Assembly (NCBI RefSeq): GCF_036429475.1
Contig: NZ_CP144125.1
Coordinates: 744,001-808,000, forward strand
Length of the DNA stretch: 64,000 bases
Reading direction: 5' to 3'
From: Halalkalicoccus sp. CGA53
GTDB taxonomy: Archaea; Halobacteriota; Halobacteria; Halobacteriales; Halalkalicoccaceae
Part shown: one piece after another, positions 10,168 to 52,084 of the stretch
How positions within the stretch are numbered: position 1 is the stretch's first letter
Layout: each line of letters starts with the position of its first letter
Notes under the pieces: generated by a model
The model's database searches: none
What the model was told of the DNA's origin: nothing
The model's input: only the letters and a program-made list of their open reading frames with translations
Translations under genes and position numbers: made by a program

Positions 10168-10299
10168 ATGAACGTACTGCAGGTGCTCGCGACGACCTCG
10201 ATCCTGTTCGTCCTGTTCGCGCTCGTCTGGGTGTTCTTCGTCGAGGACTGGCTCGAGGGACGCGAACTGAGCGGGATGTTCGACGACGGTGATCGGTGA
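10168..10299 (+). CDS. 43-residue single-span membrane peptide upstream of symporter
   Basis: Short gene read directly from the sequence. ATG at 10168 and TGA at 10297-10299 give 43 aa: one hydrophobic helix (about residues 5-25, rich in Leu, Val and Phe) followed by an acidic tail (VEDWLEGRELSGMFDDGDR). Its stop codon overlaps the start of the sodium:solute symporter gene in a TGATG arrangement, so translation is probably coupled. Several symporters of this family have small membrane partner subunits, though usually with two spans. This peptide may be a minimal partner. I do not recognise a named family. Confidence 0.65.
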   Translation: MNVLQVLATTSILFVLFALVWVFFVEDWLEGRELSGMFDDGDR

Positions 10300-11969
10300 T
10301 GGCCCTCGACCTCCTCGCGGCCGGGATGCCGCTACAGGCCGGGGCGGACGGGATCGCGGAGCAGACGGTGGTGACCTGGGGGTGGATCTTCCTGGCCGCG
10401 TACATGGTCCTGATCCTCGCGCTCGGCTTCGTCGGCTACCGGCGCGTCGAGAGCGGTAGCGGCGGCGGGACGAGCGCACAGGACGAGTACGCGACCGCGA
10501 GGGGTGGCTACGGCTTTTTGGCGCTCTCGCTCGCGTACGCGGCGACGGTCGCGAGCGGGGCGACGTTCATGAGCATCCCGGGGATGGGCTACGACATGGG
10601 GTTCATGGCCGGGTACTACGCGATGATCTACCCCATCGGCATCTTCGGGGGGATGCTGATCGTCGCCCGGGTGAGCAAGAAGGTCAGCGACCGGTTCAAC
10701 TCCCAATCCGTTCCCGACTACATCGGCGATCGGTTCCAGAGTCCGGGGCTCAGGATCGTCACGGCGCTGCTCTCGCTCTTCCTGATCTTCTACGCGATGG
10801 CGCAGATCTCCGCCGCGGGCTGGATGTTCGAGGTGATCCTCGGGATCGAGTACGTCATCGGCATCTGGGTGGCCGGCCTGTTGCTGCTCGTCTACCTCGC
10901 CGCCGGCGGCTCACACGCCGATATCCTCACGGACGCGATCCAGGGGGCGATCATGATCGGGATCACGCTCCTGATCGTCTTCATGTTCGCGACCGGGTGG
11001 GGCATCGACGGCGGCATCGAGTCGGTGAACGCGGCGCTCGAGAGCGACCAGCAGTGGGACCAGCACACCGACCCGGAGAACCCGATCTTCACCGGCTGGT
11101 GGGCGATCGTCCTGCTGATGATCGCACACATCGGGTTCACCGCACAGCCCCACCTCGGGAACAAGTTCTTCGCGATCAAGAGCAACCGGTACATCCGCCG
11201 GTTCATGCTCGCGGCGTCGCTCGTGGGCATCCTCCTCCCGCTCATGTATCTCGGCGGTGTCCTCGGGGCCGCCCAGGGGATCGAGGTTCAGGACCCCGAC
11301 GCGATCATCCCGACGCTGTTCGTCGAGAACATCCACCCGATCATGGCGGCCTTTCTCGGCATCGCGATCCTCAGCGCGATCATCTCCACCTCCGACGGCA
11401 TCGTCATCGCCGTCTCACAGATCTTCGCGAACGACCTCTACCGAAAGTCCTACGTCCCGTGGAAGGGCGGCGATCCGGAGGCCGAAGCGGTCCAGCAACG
11501 CTCGCTCCTCATCTCCCGGATATCGACCGTCTTCATCGTCTTCGTCGCCGTCGCGGCGGTGATAACGCCACCGCAGTACCTCGTGGTGTTCATGTGGACG
11601 GGGATCGGCGGGATCATCGCCTCGTTCGGCGGCCCCTATATCGTGGGGACCGTCTGGCGGCGGACGACGAAGGTCGCCGCGTACGCCGCGATCGCCGTCG
11701 GCTTCGGCGTCTACTTCTTCATCCACCTCGGCCCGCAGTTCGGCCTTCTTGGTGGCGTCTGGCCGCTCAACGAGAACCCGTTCGCCTCGACCGGGATCGG
11801 CTTCATCGTCAGCGTCGCCACGACGGTCGCGGTGAGCCTGTTCACCGAGCCGCCGACCGACGAGCACCTCGACGAGGTGTTCTCGGCCGAGAGCCGTCTC
11901 CTCGACGACGAGGGGGCCGAGCGATCTGGCCCGACCGGTCCGACGGATCCGGCGCGGGGAGACGACTGA
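10299..11969 (+). CDS. Sodium:solute symporter family (SSS) permease
   Basis: 556-aa membrane protein with about 13 hydrophobic segments, typical of the SSS family, which uses a sodium gradient to import organic solutes. The family core is visible as ASGATFMSIPGMGYDMGF near 90-107, and GIAILSAIISTSDGIVIAVSQ near 350 carries the conserved Ser/Thr of the sodium site. The acidic C-terminal tail lies in the cytoplasm. The ATG at 10299 overlaps the stop of the small membrane peptide. Its place after an alcohol and an aldehyde dehydrogenase suggests it imports their substrate; the identity is not visible. The TGA stop runs into a long palindrome. Confidence 0.9.
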   Translation: MALDLLAAGMPLQAGADGIAEQTVVTWGWIFLAAYMVLILALGFVGYRRVESGSGGGTSAQDEYATARGGYGFLALSLAYAATVASGATFMSIPGMGYDMGFMAGYYAMIYPIGIFGGMLIVARVSKKVSDRFNSQSVPDYIGDRFQSPGLRIVTALLSLFLIFYAMAQISAAGWMFEVILGIEYVIGIWVAGLLLLVYLAAGGSHADILTDAIQGAIMIGITLLIVFMFATGWGIDGGIESVNAALESDQQWDQHTDPENPIFTGWWAIVLLMIAHIGFTAQPHLGNKFFAIKSNRYIRRFMLAASLVGILLPLMYLGGVLGAAQGIEVQDPDAIIPTLFVENIHPIMAAFLGIAILSAIISTSDGIVIAVSQIFANDLYRKSYVPWKGGDPEAEAVQQRSLLISRISTVFIVFVAVAAVITPPQYLVVFMWTGIGGIIASFGGPYIVGTVWRRTTKVAAYAAIAVGFGVYFFIHLGPQFGLLGGVWPLNENPFASTGIGFIVSVATTVAVSLFTEPPTDEHLDEVFSAESRLLDDEGAERSGPTGPTDPARGDD

Positions 11970-12046
11970 TACTGTCGGCTGTACCTACGTGAGGATTCTC
12001 TCCACTCCGTAGCGGCGAGAATCTACTGACGTACAGCCGACAGTAT
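11969..12046. repeat. 78-bp palindromic element, copy 1
   Basis: A perfect 16-bp inverted repeat, ATACTGTCGGCTGTAC (11969-11984) and GTACAGCCGACAGTAT (12031-12046), encloses a nested stem GATTCTC/GAGAATC (11994-12000 and 12017-12023). It begins in the stop codon of the symporter gene. A second element of the same build lies at 48631-48709. It could be a terminator or a small non-autonomous mobile element. No clear target duplication is seen. Confidence 0.75.
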
Positions 12047-12067
12047 GACCCCGCGAGCGACGAGACG

Positions 12068-12096: not shown

Positions 12097-12684
12097 ATGG
12101 AGATCACCGCGTTCGAGGCGACGCTCGACGAGGACTCGGCGGTCGAGCGGACGCGGAACCTGAGCGCCGTCGAGTACGCGCGTCGGTGGGTCGGTGACCT
12201 CCTCGGGAGGCGAGCACGGGCGAGCCCCGACGTGCGCGTCGTCTACTACCCGGACTACATCGCATACACATCCGCGTCGATCAGGCGGCTGATCCGCGAC
12301 GAGAAGTCGCTGAAGTTCCTCGCGGGGATCGACGCCGTCACCGGTCGGGCCGGCGAGGTCGACGTGAGCCTGCCCTCGCGACGAACGATCGACGTCGACC
12401 GGGCGTTCGTGATCCACCCGCAGGTGGACGCGGCAGAGGCCGAGGCGATCTGGCGGGAGTGGCTGTTCTCCTACGTCGGCCGGTACCACCGCGCCGTCGA
12501 GATGCCCGAGTACTCGCTGGACGACCTCGAGCTCGTCTACACGCCCTACTGGGTGATCGACTACGGCTCGGCCGAAGAGAGCCTGGCGGTCAGCGACCTG
12601 ACGCGCCGGACGGCGACGGTCGAGGAGATAGAGGTTCTAGAGGAGTTCTACGAGCGGTTCATGCGCGACGACGCCCGGGCGTGA
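12097..12684 (+). CDS. Conserved haloarchaeal protein of unknown function
   Basis: 195-aa soluble, acidic protein that I do not recognise as a named family. It has an alternating strand/helix pattern with aromatic-rich strands (VRVVYYPDYIAYTSA near 48-62, and LELVYTPYWVIDYG near 147-160) and a C-terminal charged helix. No signal peptide or membrane segment is seen. The TATA-like box 25 nt upstream and the strong GC bias at third codon positions support a real gene. It stands alone between the symporter and the universal stress protein on the same strand. Confidence 0.7.
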   Translation: MEITAFEATLDEDSAVERTRNLSAVEYARRWVGDLLGRRARASPDVRVVYYPDYIAYTSASIRRLIRDEKSLKFLAGIDAVTGRAGEVDVSLPSRRTIDVDRAFVIHPQVDAAEAEAIWREWLFSYVGRYHRAVEMPEYSLDDLELVYTPYWVIDYGSAEESLAVSDLTRRTATVEEIEVLEEFYERFMRDDARA

Positions 12685-47548: not shown

Positions 47549-48520
47549 ATGTCACGATCCGCGCTGGTCGGCAACGTGATCGCGATGCTCCGCGACGCGG
47601 GCTTCGCCGTGAGCGACCGGTGTGCGATCCGACCCAAGAGCTTCGACGTCGCGGCGCGGCGCGGCGAGGACCTCGTCCTCTTGAAGATTCTCGGCAACAT
47701 CGACGGCCTCGACGCCGAAACGGGCGTCGAGATGCGCCGCCTCGGCGAGTACCTCGGCGCGACGCCGTTCGTCATCGGGCTCCGGACCCGCGACGAGGAG
47801 CTGAAACCGGGCGTCGTCTACTTCCGTCACGGCGTTCCGGTACTGAGCCCCGACACCGTCTACGACCTCGTCATCGAGGAGGTGCCGCCGCTGATCTACG
47901 CCGCCCCCGGCGGGCTCTACGTCAACATCGACGAGGAGATCCTCGCGGACGAGCGCCGCCAGCAGAACATGAGCCTGGGCCAGCTCGCGAGCGAACTCGG
48001 CGTCTCCCGACGAACCGTCTCGAAGTACGAGGACGGCATGAACGCCTCCATCGAGGTCGCGATGCGTCTGGAGGAGCTGTTCGACGCCCCCCTCACGAGC
48101 CCCGTCGACGTACTCGCCGGGGCGGGCGAGGTCCGAGAGTCCGAACCGACGCCCGGCGCGCTCTCGGTCGATCCGGACGACGAACACATCGTCACCGTGC
48201 TCACCCGCGCGGGGTTCACCGTCCACCCGACCGCACGCGCGCCGTTCAAGGCGGTGAGCGAGGACGCCGACGAAGACGACGAGAACGTCCTCACCGGCCA
48301 CTCCCAACTCTCGAAGACCGCCCAGAAACGGGCGCGCATCATGGCTTCTATTGGAAAAGTGACGCTCACCCGCTCGGTCTACTTCGTCGACGAGACTCCC
48401 AAAGAGGAGGTCGAAGGAACCGCGTTCATCGAGTGCGCGGAGGCCGAGAGCCTCTCCGACGCGGACGAACTGAAGGAGCTGATCCACGAGCGGACCGACC
48501 CGCCCGAAGAGGTCGCGTAG
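47549..48520 (+). CDS. Archaeal HTH-type (Cro/C1) transcriptional regulator
   Basis: 323-aa protein of a family conserved across archaea and annotated as putative HTH-type transcriptional regulatory protein. The N-terminal 120 residues form an alpha/beta nuclease-like domain ([20 protein letters not shown] and [20 protein letters not shown]). A Cro/C1 HTH lies near 132-186 ([20 protein letters not shown], then [20 protein letters not shown]). A C-terminal domain of about 130 residues follows. Targets are unknown. It is followed by a palindromic element and a convergent gene. Confidence 0.92.
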
Positions 48521-48630: not shown

Positions 48631-48709
48631 TACGGACTGCTGTACCGGTATACCGCTCGGACCGAGCGGCGGGGACCGGTCTGACCGGTACGGACTACAG
48701 CAGTCCGTA
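48631..48709. repeat. 79-bp palindromic element, copy 2
   Basis: A perfect 14-bp inverted repeat, TACGGACTGCTGTA (48631-48644) and TACAGCAGTCCGTA (48696-48709), encloses an inner hairpin CCGCTCGG/CCGAGCGG (48653-48660 and 48662-48669). It lies between two convergent genes. Its outer arms match those of copy 1 at 11969-12046 in 12 of 15 positions, and the differences are compensated in the opposite arm. Confidence 0.75.
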
Positions 48710-48769: not shown

Positions 48770-50116
48770 TCAACGACCCGGTTTGAGTACTCGCCACGCG
48801 ATCCCCGGACGAAACAGCGAGGTTGGCCGGTTCTCCATCGTGACGACGCGATTGAAGGATTCGGCCAGGCTTCCGTCGGTCTGGGCCTTACGATGCAGTC
48901 TGGCGACGTACCCGTTCACGAGGTCCGTCCCGAACGGTTTGGGACCGGTCGTCCGTTGGAACTGGAAGTCGGAGCCGACCGCGAGCCTCCACGCGTCGTC
49001 GACGACGTCTGCGGCACGCTCGAAGAACCCGAGTGCGACCTCGTCACTGCGCTCGGTCGCCAGCGTGTGGTGTAGCTGGAGAGCCTCGAGCGCGGCCACG
49101 GTCATGCCCTGGCCGTAGATCGGATTGAAGCTGGCGATCGCGTCACCGACGACGACCAGACCCACGGGGAACCGGTCGAGGTCCTCGTAGCGGCGTCTGA
49201 CGTTCGCCGGGAACGGGTAGTGCGCGATCTCCTCCGAGACCAGCGCGTGCTCCTCGAGGAGGCGTTCTATATCGGGGATCGGGAGACTGGCTGCGTACTC
49301 GACGAACCCCTCCGGATCCGTCGGCGGCCGGTCGCCGTGGACGCCGACCAGCGTCAGCAGCCGCCGTCCGTGTTCGATCGGAAACGTTCCACAGCCCCGC
49401 GTTCGCGGCGGGTTCGGCATCAGGAAGAACGACCGGCGGCTCTCGGCGGGTCGTTCGATGACGGCCGTGCTGTACGCCAGGTCGATGTACACCTCGTCGG
49501 TCGTGGGCGAGGGAAAGCCGTGTCTCTCGAGCCAGGCAGGCGTCCGGGAGGTTCGTCCGGTGGCGTCGACGACCAGCTCGGCCTCGATCTCCCGTTCGCC
49601 ACCCCCGGTTCGGACGATCACCCCCTCGACGGTCGTACCCTCGTCGACGAGGTAGTCGACGAACTGACACTCGTCCCGTATCGTGACACGATCGAGTGCG
49701 GCGACCCGTCGTCGGGTGATTCGCTCGAACAGCGGCCGACTCGCACAGTACATCGGCATCCGGGTCGGCCCGTCCGCGAGGAAGTCCCCCTCCTCGTATA
49801 TTGCCAGGTCGCTGGCGAGGTCGATCACCAGCGCGCCGGCCCCGATCACCTCCTCGCCGTAGCCGGGAAAGATGTCCTCTAGCGTCGCCTGTCCTGCCGT
49901 CTGCATCACGTGGATGTGGCGTGCCTGGGGGGTCCCCGGACGGGCGACCGCGTCCTCCGGAAGTGGGTCTCGTTCGACGAGTGTGACCGTTTCGAACCGA
50001 TCGACCAGCACACGGGTCGCGACCAGTCCGGCCATGCTCGCCCCGACGACCACCGCGTGCCCACCCCTCTCGGCGATCCGATCGGGATCGTATCGGGAAA
50101 CGGTTGCCAGGGCCAT
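48770..50116 (-). CDS. FAD-dependent oxidoreductase (monooxygenase/geranylgeranyl reductase type)
   Basis: 448-aa flavoprotein. The FAD dinucleotide fold is AVVVGASMAGLVATRVLVDR near 21, with a second glycine strand DATGRTSRTPAWLE and the late GDAIASFNPIYGQGMTVAAL motif near 340. This is the group that includes aromatic hydroxylases, epoxidases and geranylgeranyl reductases. The ATG at 50116 was chosen; a very long in-frame extension above it reads other genes in the wrong frame. It lies downstream of a zinc-ribbon peptide gene and a quinone reductase/UbiA fusion gene on the same strand, so a role in isoprenoid or quinone chemistry is likely but inferred. Confidence 0.87.
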   Translation of the reverse strand: MALATVSRYDPDRIAERGGHAVVVGASMAGLVATRVLVDRFETVTLVERDPLPEDAVARPGTPQARHIHVMQTAGQATLEDIFPGYGEEVIGAGALVIDLASDLAIYEEGDFLADGPTRMPMYCASRPLFERITRRRVAALDRVTIRDECQFVDYLVDEGTTVEGVIVRTGGGEREIEAELVVDATGRTSRTPAWLERHGFPSPTTDEVYIDLAYSTAVIERPAESRRSFFLMPNPPRTRGCGTFPIEHGRRLLTLVGVHGDRPPTDPEGFVEYAASLPIPDIERLLEEHALVSEEIAHYPFPANVRRRYEDLDRFPVGLVVVGDAIASFNPIYGQGMTVAALEALQLHHTLATERSDEVALGFFERAADVVDDAWRLAVGSDFQFQRTTGPKPFGTDLVNGYVARLHRKAQTDGSLAESFNRVVTMENRPTSLFRPGIAWRVLKPGR

Positions 50117-50307
50117 CCGTCGACCTCTCGACTCTCCCTCGAGCCGAGAGTAAATAACGCTACTCCGTGACACTCGCCCAGGGTGCGACGTCTCGTCAGC
50201 CGGTGACCCCGCTCCGCCCCGTCCTCGACAGGACGGCTCCGACGGACTCCCCGGACCGACTCGACCACGCCGCACTGCGTCGCCGATCGGTGGAGACGGC
50301 TCCCGAC

Positions 50308-50412
50308 TCAGGGGGCCACCAGGGTCCCGCGTTCCGCGACGTGCCCGCACTCCGGACAGGCCTCGTAGCCCTGAACGATCGCCAGCCTCGTCTCGCAGTC
50401 GGGACAGTCCAT
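50308..50412 (-). CDS. 34-residue zinc-ribbon microprotein
   Basis: Short gene read directly from the sequence. ATG at 50412 and TGA at 50308-50310 give 34 aa with two CPxC-type knuckles, MDCPDCETRL and ACPECGHVAERG, joined by a short hydrophobic linker. This matches the small CPxCG-type zinc-finger proteins known in haloarchaea, several of which have regulatory effects. It lies between the NQO-UbiA fusion gene (54 nt upstream) and the FAD oxidoreductase gene (191 nt downstream), all on the minus strand. Its partner or target is unknown. Confidence 0.75.
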   Translation of the reverse strand: MDCPDCETRLAIVQGYEACPECGHVAERGTLVAP

Positions 50413-50466
50413 AGCACCCCTCTGCTTTCGACGATTCATAAGTGTATATACGACGATCGACGAAGG

Positions 50467-51981
50467 TCAGAGGAGCGCGACGAGCGGTGCGAGCGCGAAC
50501 CAGGTGAGATAGCTCAGCGCAGCGATCATGGGGCCGTCGATGCGACGCGGCTCGTCCGGTACACGGAGCTCGAGCAGCCAGGCGAGCCCGAGCGCGTGCG
50601 GGACCGAGAGGAGGACCAGGGCGTTGTAGGCACCCGGTACGAGCTCCGAGACGTACAGGGCGACCCCCGCGAGGGAGGCGAGGAGCGCCGTCACCTGTGC
50701 GAACCGAACCCCCCCATCGATGCCGAATCGGACGGCGATCGTCCGTTTTCCGGCCGCCCGGTCCGCGTCGTGGTCGGGGATCGCGGAGAGGGTGATCGAG
50801 GGGAGGATCGCGAGGAGATAGGGCAGGCCGACCAGCCACGGCAGCGGATCGAGCGGATCGCCGCCCAGAACGACGAACCCGGGGAGCAGGACGCCGAGGC
50901 TGTGCGTGACGGCGACGTCGAGTTCGCCGAGGGTGCGGTAGGAGAGTTTCAGCGGGGCGAGCGTGTAGCCGAGCGCGAGGACGGCGAGGAGGAGCATCGA
51001 GCCGGCCATCACGGGGAGCGGACCGGTGCCGGTCGCCAGCACGCCGATCCCCGAGAGCCCGGCGAGGGAAAGCGCGATGAGGATCCCGATCTCGATCTGA
51101 CGGAAGCCGAGCGCGCCGTCGACGAGCACCTGGGAGCCGCCGGTGAACGGCCCGGCGAAGGTGTTCCTCCTGTCCGTCTCGTAGTCGGCGTACTCGTTGC
51201 TCAGGACGGTCGCGGCCTCGAGGAAGAAGAGAAAGGAGAGCCCGAGCCAGTAGGCGAGCGAGGTGAACGCGTCGGAACCGACGGCCCCGAGCGCGCCGAT
51301 CGTGTACGCCACCCAGGCCATCGGGTAGAACTGGAGTCTGAGCGCCCGGAGCCACGCGGAGACCGAGTAGCGGATCCGCGACCACCGGGTGTCGGGACCG
51401 CCCGCGAGCGATCGGCCGAGCGCCTCGGCCTCCGCCAGCCACCCTGCGCGTTCCTCCGGCTCGGACCCCTCGACGGGTCCGAGATGTGTCACCCGGGTCG
51501 TCCGTATCCCGGCGAAGTCGAGCGTCGCACCCTTCACCGCGTTCGTCCCCGGCTGGCGCTGGATCAGCCGGTAGACCAGCGGCGGGACGTCCATCGTCAC
51601 GAGGAGTTCCGCGGTCTTCTCCGAGAGCAGTTCCTCGTGGCCCGCGCCTTCGCCCTCGTCGTAGAACGAGAAGGCGAAGCCGGGGGCGAAGGTCCGGTCG
51701 AAGAAGCCCTTGAGCAGTGCTGGCATCGTCCCCCACCAGTTCGGGTAGACGAAGACGAGGTGGTCCGCCCACTCGATCTCCCTCCTCGCCGCCGCTACGT
51801 CCGGTTCGGTGTGCTGGTCGGTCGGTTCTTCGGTTCTGACGTTCGGGTCGAACTCCAGATCTGTGACGGCGAGCGAGCGGACGTTCACCCCCGTCTCGGC
51901 CGCCCCGCGCTCGTAGGCCCGGGCGAGCGCGCCGCAGAGACTCTCGCGTCGCGGGTGACCGAGAACGATCAGGACGTTCAC
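50467..51981 (-). CDS. Fusion of NQO-type quinone reductase and UbiA prenyltransferase
   Basis: 504-aa two-domain protein. Residues about 1-195 are an NAD(P)H:quinone reductase flavodoxin fold, with MNVLIVLGHPRRES at the start and the flavin site FVYPNWWGTMPALLKGFFDR near 78-97. Residues about 205-504 are a UbiA-family prenyltransferase with about nine membrane spans, and both Asp-rich motifs are intact: NEYADYETD (262-270) and DHDAD (403-407), followed by GKRT. UbiA enzymes join a prenyl chain to an aromatic or other acceptor in the membrane. There is no frameshift or internal stop. The substrate is unknown; a quinone or carotenoid-like product is plausible. Confidence 0.9.
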   Translation of the reverse strand: MNVLIVLGHPRRESLCGALARAYERGAAETGVNVRSLAVTDLEFDPNVRTEEPTDQHTEPDVAAARREIEWADHLVFVYPNWWGTMPALLKGFFDRTFAPGFAFSFYDEGEGAGHEELLSEKTAELLVTMDVPPLVYRLIQRQPGTNAVKGATLDFAGIRTTRVTHLGPVEGSEPEERAGWLAEAEALGRSLAGGPDTRWSRIRYSVSAWLRALRLQFYPMAWVAYTIGALGAVGSDAFTSLAYWLGLSFLFFLEAATVLSNEYADYETDRRNTFAGPFTGGSQVLVDGALGFRQIEIGILIALSLAGLSGIGVLATGTGPLPVMAGSMLLLAVLALGYTLAPLKLSYRTLGELDVAVTHSLGVLLPGFVVLGGDPLDPLPWLVGLPYLLAILPSITLSAIPDHDADRAAGKRTIAVRFGIDGGVRFAQVTALLASLAGVALYVSELVPGAYNALVLLSVPHALGLAWLLELRVPDEPRRIDGPMIAALSYLTWFALAPLVALL

Positions 51982-52084
51982 GCACGCTCGCTCGTCGCCC
52001 TCCGGGTTCGGTGTTCGACCTGCACCTGCCGCTCTGGGCTCGGCCGCTACGCGCTCTCGCGAGGGATCGGAGACGGCCGAGGGG

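Follow-up and report, generated by a model that had tools for sequence, protein, structure and literature searches.

Probable miniature mobile elements behind a family of stop-codon-associated palindromes in Halobacteriales

Two palindromes in a Halalkalicoccus locus

The window analyzed here, meaning the whole 64,000-nucleotide stretch, comes from Halalkalicoccus sp. CGA53 (contig NZ_CP144125.1, positions 744,001 to 808,000). It holds only two clear copies of the palindrome described below, one directly behind a sodium:solute symporter gene and the other between two convergent genes; a third covariance-model match (E 0.22) was not significant. The features are as follows, with the evidence for each in parentheses.

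10296 to 11969, plus strand: sodium:solute symporter gene, its stop codon being the insertion target (ORF; PF00474, E 3e-41)
11967 to 11969, plus strand: TGA, the symporter stop codon and at once the left-hand repeat of the 3-bp target duplication (ORF end; the G009 orthologue stops there too but lacks the element)
11970 to 12045, no strand: copy 1, probably mobile palindrome, subfamily A, 76 bp (sequence; relatives in its own genome; covariance-model match; empty site in G009 and G004)
11970 to 11983, plus strand: left terminal inverted repeat of copy 1, TACTGTCGGCTGTA (sequence; family consensus TACnGnCnGnTGTA)
12032 to 12045, minus strand: right terminal inverted repeat of copy 1, TACTGTCGGCTGTA on the minus strand (sequence)
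12046 to 12048, plus strand: TGA, the right-hand repeat of the 3-bp target duplication (sequence; duplication pattern across the family)
12097 to 12684, plus strand: gene downstream of copy 1, with no Pfam match, syntenic in G009 (ORF; synteny)
47549 to 48520, plus strand: helix-turn-helix gene left of copy 2, with its stop 110 bp before the element (ORF; PF01381)
48631 to 48709, no strand: copy 2, probably mobile palindrome of subfamily B, length 79 bp, located between convergent genes (sequence; relatives; G002 orthologue; covariance-model match)
48631 to 48644, plus strand: left terminal inverted repeat of copy 2, TACGGACTGCTGTA (sequence)
48653 to 48669, no strand: first inner hairpin of copy 2, CCGCTCGGACCGAGCGG (sequence; DNA fold centroid)
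48675 to 48689, no strand: second inner hairpin of copy 2, ACCGGTCTGACCGGT (sequence; DNA fold centroid)
48696 to 48709, minus strand: right terminal inverted repeat of copy 2 (sequence)
48770 to 51985, minus strand: convergent gene with an FAD-binding domain right of copy 2, with its stop 60 bp past the element and a true start possibly later (ORF; PF01494)

The outer arms of the two copies, TACTGTCGGCTGTAC and TACGGACTGCTGTAC, are equal at 12 of 15 positions. They differ at positions 4, 6, and 8, and at all three the opposite arm has changed to match, as the first-pass annotation had reported. Its count of 14 of 14 outer pairs in copy 2 was likewise confirmed. For copy 1, the count of 16 of 16 outer pairs was right, but the outermost pair, A11969-T12046, is flanking target DNA, because the A belongs to the upstream stop codon and the T duplicates the T of that codon. 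Copy 1 proper therefore measures 76 bp; copy 2 measures 79 bp. The inner sequences had been called unrelated, which is not wholly correct, since CTGTGT-like and GACGTACA-like segments lie beside the arms in both subfamilies. When folded as single strands, both copies beat 200 of 200 dinucleotide shuffles (z of -7.2 and -6.0).

Copy 2 is an older insertion. It is common to the congener G002 at the same locus, and its target duplication is gone. Its arms are 93% identical to those in G002, compared with 63 to 80% in the flanking intergenic DNA; this better conservation could point to a retained function.

Spread and anatomy of the family

In the source genome (two contigs, 4.04 Mb in total), BLAST matched copy 1 at about 10 other places and copy 2 at about 35, and the existence of these copies excludes chance as the origin of the palindromes in the window. 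In all, 114 distinct copies were gathered across the order Halobacteriales, and a covariance model was made from 32 copies. The search of haloarchaeal genomes with such a model, as proposed in the first-pass annotation, detected the family in 196 of 392 genomes of the Halobacteriales, belonging to 58 of 95 genera; many of these genomes had at least 11 matches. The distribution was patchy, with element-free species beside element-rich ones. The proposal of one family kept as a palindrome is thus upheld by the additional copies in the same genome and by the matches across the order; the arm changes in these copies mostly preserve pairing.

An exact-arm pattern matched 22 stretches among 84,980 species genomes, 21 of them in Halobacteria. 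The single bacterial match had no inner similarity to the family and looks like chance. Further arm types came from the arm pattern scan (TACGGACGGTTGTA, TACGGTCGGTTGTA, and TACGGTCTGCTGTA), and those of Halorhabdus G270 (TACGGATTGCTCT and TACGGATTATTGT) are unlike the types found in Halalkalicoccus. Spread by phages or viruses was considered and rejected, with 0 matches among 50,697 phage records and one chance-like match in IMG/VR. In the source genome, 63 of 63 arm matches (at most one mismatch) lay on the 3.76-Mb contig and none on the contig of 279,642 bases; in other haloarchaea, unlike on this empty contig, plasmid-borne copies occur. No Rfam family passed its gathering threshold in the window, and at four loci the element itself drew no Rfam match with an E of 1 or less. 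Searches of the openly accessible literature returned the SMRs, PATEs, and MITEs of Haloquadratum as well as surveys of REPs; the palindrome family was described neither there nor in Rfam.

The element is non-coding and 76 to 80 bp long in nearly all of the 114 copies, and it contains no T run. Its ends are inverted repeats with the consensus TACnGnCnGnTGTA and its complement, and the terminal 14 to 15 bp are paired in nearly all copies. The best-preserved copies carry a second stem, CCGGTGCAACCGC...GCGGTTGCACCGG, inside the outer one; a conserved internal loop of slight asymmetry (ACGATTTA / AAATGACT) lies between the two. In subfamily B of the source genus, two small inner hairpins take the place of the one inner stem. 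Paired changes were common in both stems, with 12 of 28 pairs changed on both sides. Both-sided changes numbered 51 cells, compared with 12.6 by shuffling, a difference that cannot be read as a probability because the sequences are related.

Two neighbors of family copies were recorded separately. Near one member, a different 78-bp inverted repeat with CGTCTCCGTCTCGT...ACGAGACGGAGACG-like ends is preceded by TTA (L115 671-748, at about 42,570 on C2 of the source genome), and its sequence is unrelated to the family. An archaeal SRP RNA gene (RF01857, L003 319-629) lies about 0.9 kb from the copy at L003 1513.

When copies were oriented by the neighboring gene, arm mismatches were about equally G-U (30) and A-C (25), and folding did not differ between the sense and antisense strands (n = 72, p = 0.92). 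Selection at the RNA level, in the direction of the gene, was rejected on these results. Orientation by the inner asymmetry gave a G-T excess of 25 to 3 over A-C and an advantage of 2.85 kcal/mol, in a set of mostly covariance-model-picked copies. Strand-specific folding was also rejected, because that model favors G-U pairs and the excess was gone in the 36 BLAST-ascertained copies (G-T to A-C of 15 to 12, p = 0.70). A small energy difference between the strands persisted among closely related copies (2.0 kcal/mol, p = 0.01). With no strand bias by gene orientation or in BLAST-found copies, the compensating changes are best explained by the symmetry of a DNA palindrome, whose two ends may be read by one protein or whose arms may correct each other. 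A terminator or structured RNA, which the first-pass annotation had also offered, thus finds no backing as the primary nature of the element. A secondary effect on mRNA 3' ends could nevertheless exist.

Target duplication, empty sites, and stop codons

Of 114 copies, 75 had identical triplets on the two sides of the element, compared with 32 on average and 44 at most in shuffles, although copies found with the covariance model may favor intact flanks, because the flank columns are part of the model. Among the 36 BLAST-found Natrialba copies, 30 had identical triplets. The middle base was equal in 105 of 114 copies. Duplicated triplets were mostly TGA or TCA, with a few TTA or TAA, and C before and G after were preferred, giving CTNAG. 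In the Natrialba copies L252-L291, oriented by the inner asymmetry, TGA duplications numbered 24 and TCA duplications 6.

Empty sites in relatives, another check that had been suggested, were found for copy 1 and for one Natrialba copy. In Natrialba G278 the locus reads CTC-TGA-[79 bp]-TGA-GTCC, compared with CTC-TGA-GTCC in the 94%-identical species G245; in the 96%-identical G370, only the left part of the element remains. For copy 1, the symporter of the sister-genus genome G009 ends in GACGACTGA without the element, only a short spacer separating it from the orthologue of the downstream gene, and the syntenic locus in G004 also lacks the copy. When a 17-kb region was compared with congeners, most matches were paralogous. 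One 80-bp element of Halorhabdus G270 is nested in another and flanked by TGA duplicates (L202 548-710, C9:8147-8309), and an intact sibling of the outer element is present in the same genome (L202, L208). Nesting was seen in this one case. The suggestion of a non-autonomous mobile element, also made from the first reading, is supported by the 3-bp target duplications, the two empty sites, and the nested insertion.

In 72 of 114 copies (63%), a frame of coding appearance has the flanking triplet as its in-frame stop codon. By comparison, stop codons made up 18% of non-coding target sites in 143 kb of the source genome, weighted by the observed target preference, a background that rests on heuristic gene calls and is that of one genome applied to copies from many. 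Public records of Natrialba magadii, Natrinema thermotolerans, Haloterrigena, and Natronorubrum likewise have coding sequences that end at the element's edge. Where the duplicated triplet is the stop codon of the neighboring gene, insertion restores the stop. The simplest reading is that duplication of TGA rebuilds the stop codon and lets such insertions survive. We infer that the excess of stop codons reflects this survival of harmless insertions; perhaps a preference for inserting at gene 3' ends is present besides.

In 22 of the 114 copies, nearly all from the source genus, TGA stands on one side and CGA on the other (e.g., L020 1501-1579, L060 1001-1079, and L115 1046-1123). The change was always T to C at the base touching the element, and the TGA side was the stop codon in most of these copies. 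Outside the source genus the pattern was nearly absent, with one case in the 36-copy Natrialba set. Plain duplication does not explain these copies. As a speculation, an error in gap repair together with selection for keeping the stop codon would fit.

Origin of the elements and known systems

Taken together, the palindromes are very probably copies of one order-wide family of short (76- to 80-bp), non-coding, non-autonomous DNA transposable elements. The element inserts at CTNAG and duplicates the 3-bp TNA; where the target is a TGA stop codon, the duplication rebuilds the codon and leaves the host protein unchanged. A transposase supplied in trans would bind the two nearly identical ends and join the element to target strands cut 3 nt apart, which is the mode of DDE transposases; staggered insertion of this kind at a palindromic target would be a DDE-transposase outcome. 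The need for one protein to fit both ends would keep the element palindromic, as would mutual correction of the arms in the course of replication or repair, and either or both may be at work.

The mobilizing enzyme was sought in element-rich genomes. Two such genomes with near-identical copies, G270 and G278, yielded no autonomous element bearing these ends; all near-exact arms in G270 and 38 of 38 in G278 pair at about 80 bp. Two transposase families were surveyed: none of about 50 DDE_Tnp_1 regions had the element's ends, several of these loci carrying clear 8-bp duplications instead, and DDE_Tnp_4 was found in none of ten element-rich genomes. When the 1024 proteins predicted at the loci were compared all against all by BLAST, the largest clusters included no transposase that recurs beside the copies. 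Thus, an autonomous parent has so far been rejected on the arm searches, the DDE_Tnp_1 ends, and DDE_Tnp_4 alike. We tentatively suggest, at somewhat less than even chances, that the mover is an undescribed or domesticated haloarchaeal enzyme without an IS of its own bearing these ends; it might recognize the near-complete palindrome and CTNAG, and could thus, through insertions at stop codons that do no harm, have brought a single 80-bp element to half of the order.

A miniature derivative of a specific known IS is rather unlikely on the present evidence. The IS1031 and ISL2 groups of the IS5 family and Harbinger-like transposons make a 3-bp TNA-type target duplication, and the palindrome family does so too; the length of the duplication and its motif fit such a derivative, the parent having been lost or differing save for the outermost bases. 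MITEs may indeed have just a few terminal bases in common with the mobilizing transposon (PMC3119063). However, none of these elements with TAC... ends was found in the genomes examined, and the uniform pairing at about 80 bp in G270 and G278, the other ends and 8-bp duplications of the DDE_Tnp_1 loci, and the missing DDE_Tnp_4 all count against it. Integration of a circle through a 3-bp crossover, as in a site-specific recombination cassette, would account for the TGA/CGA copies, which resemble a heteroduplex crossover, and for the 24-to-6 bias of Natrialba orientation towards TGA; yet one inner orientation occurs with both TGA and TCA duplications (e.g., in Halorhabdus), which a fixed core would not give, and we lend this model hardly any credence.

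The remaining alternatives start from the hairpin itself. A bidirectional terminator or mRNA 3'-end stabilizer conserved by the host, that is, an RNA hairpin kept for its function right after the stop, could draw on the strength of the hairpins, on the exact abutment of stop codons in 63% of copies against 18% expected, and on the well-kept arms of the shared copy 2, and hairpins are able to terminate transcription in Haloferax volcanii (PMC7237163). It is nonetheless improbable given the target duplications, empty sites, and nested copy, the equality of sense and antisense folding and of G-U and A-C mismatches, the missing T run, and the element-free sister species. Movement of a REP-like repeat as a folded single strand by a Y1 transposase of the IS200/RAYT type appears very improbable. 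Many-copy, non-coding extragenic palindromes that often stand beside stop codons and form stable single-strand folds are what it would predict, but genuine duplication of a 3-bp target whose middle base varies, a length of 76 to 80 bp compared with 20 to 40 bp for REPs (PMC3733652), and the balance of G-T and A-C in unbiased copies (15 and 12) argue against it.

With the mobile family as the preferred reading, scattered and unannotated haloarchaeal palindromes are joined into one family whose unit, target (CTNAG), and duplication (TNA) are defined, so that the question of which enzyme moves them becomes testable. The family also illustrates a form of coexistence with the host, in that insertion into a stop codon leaves the protein unchanged when TGA is duplicated. 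A hairpin is thereby placed at many mRNA 3' ends, where it could be recruited for termination or stability. The family is also a source of strain markers and a caution for genome annotators.

Among known systems, MITEs share with the palindromes a short non-coding body, terminal inverted repeats, a short target duplication of fixed length (3 bp in the palindromes), and a high copy number (dozens per genome in the palindromes). In contrast to them, the two genomes and two transposase families examined yielded no parent IS whose ends match, and the palindrome family is almost palindromic over its whole length, spans an order, and is strongly placed at stop codons. The SMR-A and SMR-B elements of Haloquadratum walsbyi, of 80 to 110 bp (e.g., HqIRS41, 80 bp), are also haloarchaeal, non-coding, and present in many copies, with inverted ends unlike those of known transposons and a mobilizer likewise not identified (PMC3119063). 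They were reported to make no duplication of the target and to have other mobile elements as insertion sites (PMC3119063), a description that would set apart the present family, which duplicates TNA and prefers stop codons (72 of 114). PATEs of Haloquadratum resemble it in being haloarchaeal, mobile, non-coding, and palindrome-containing but have neither terminal inverted repeats nor target duplications and derive from IS605-type elements (PMC3119063). REPs, mobilized in REP/RAYT systems, are many-copy extragenic palindromes often near stop codons as well; their length is 20 to 40 bp, and GTAG or CGTC tags are present in most (PMC3733652, PMC12306157), whereas the palindrome family measures 76 to 80 bp, ends in TACnGnC, and makes a 3-bp target duplication. 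On the tests applied here, the palindrome is not a REP, a PATE, or a terminator. Working like a MITE, resembling the SMRs, and fitting none of these three, the palindrome is therefore most probably a non-autonomous miniature transposable element.
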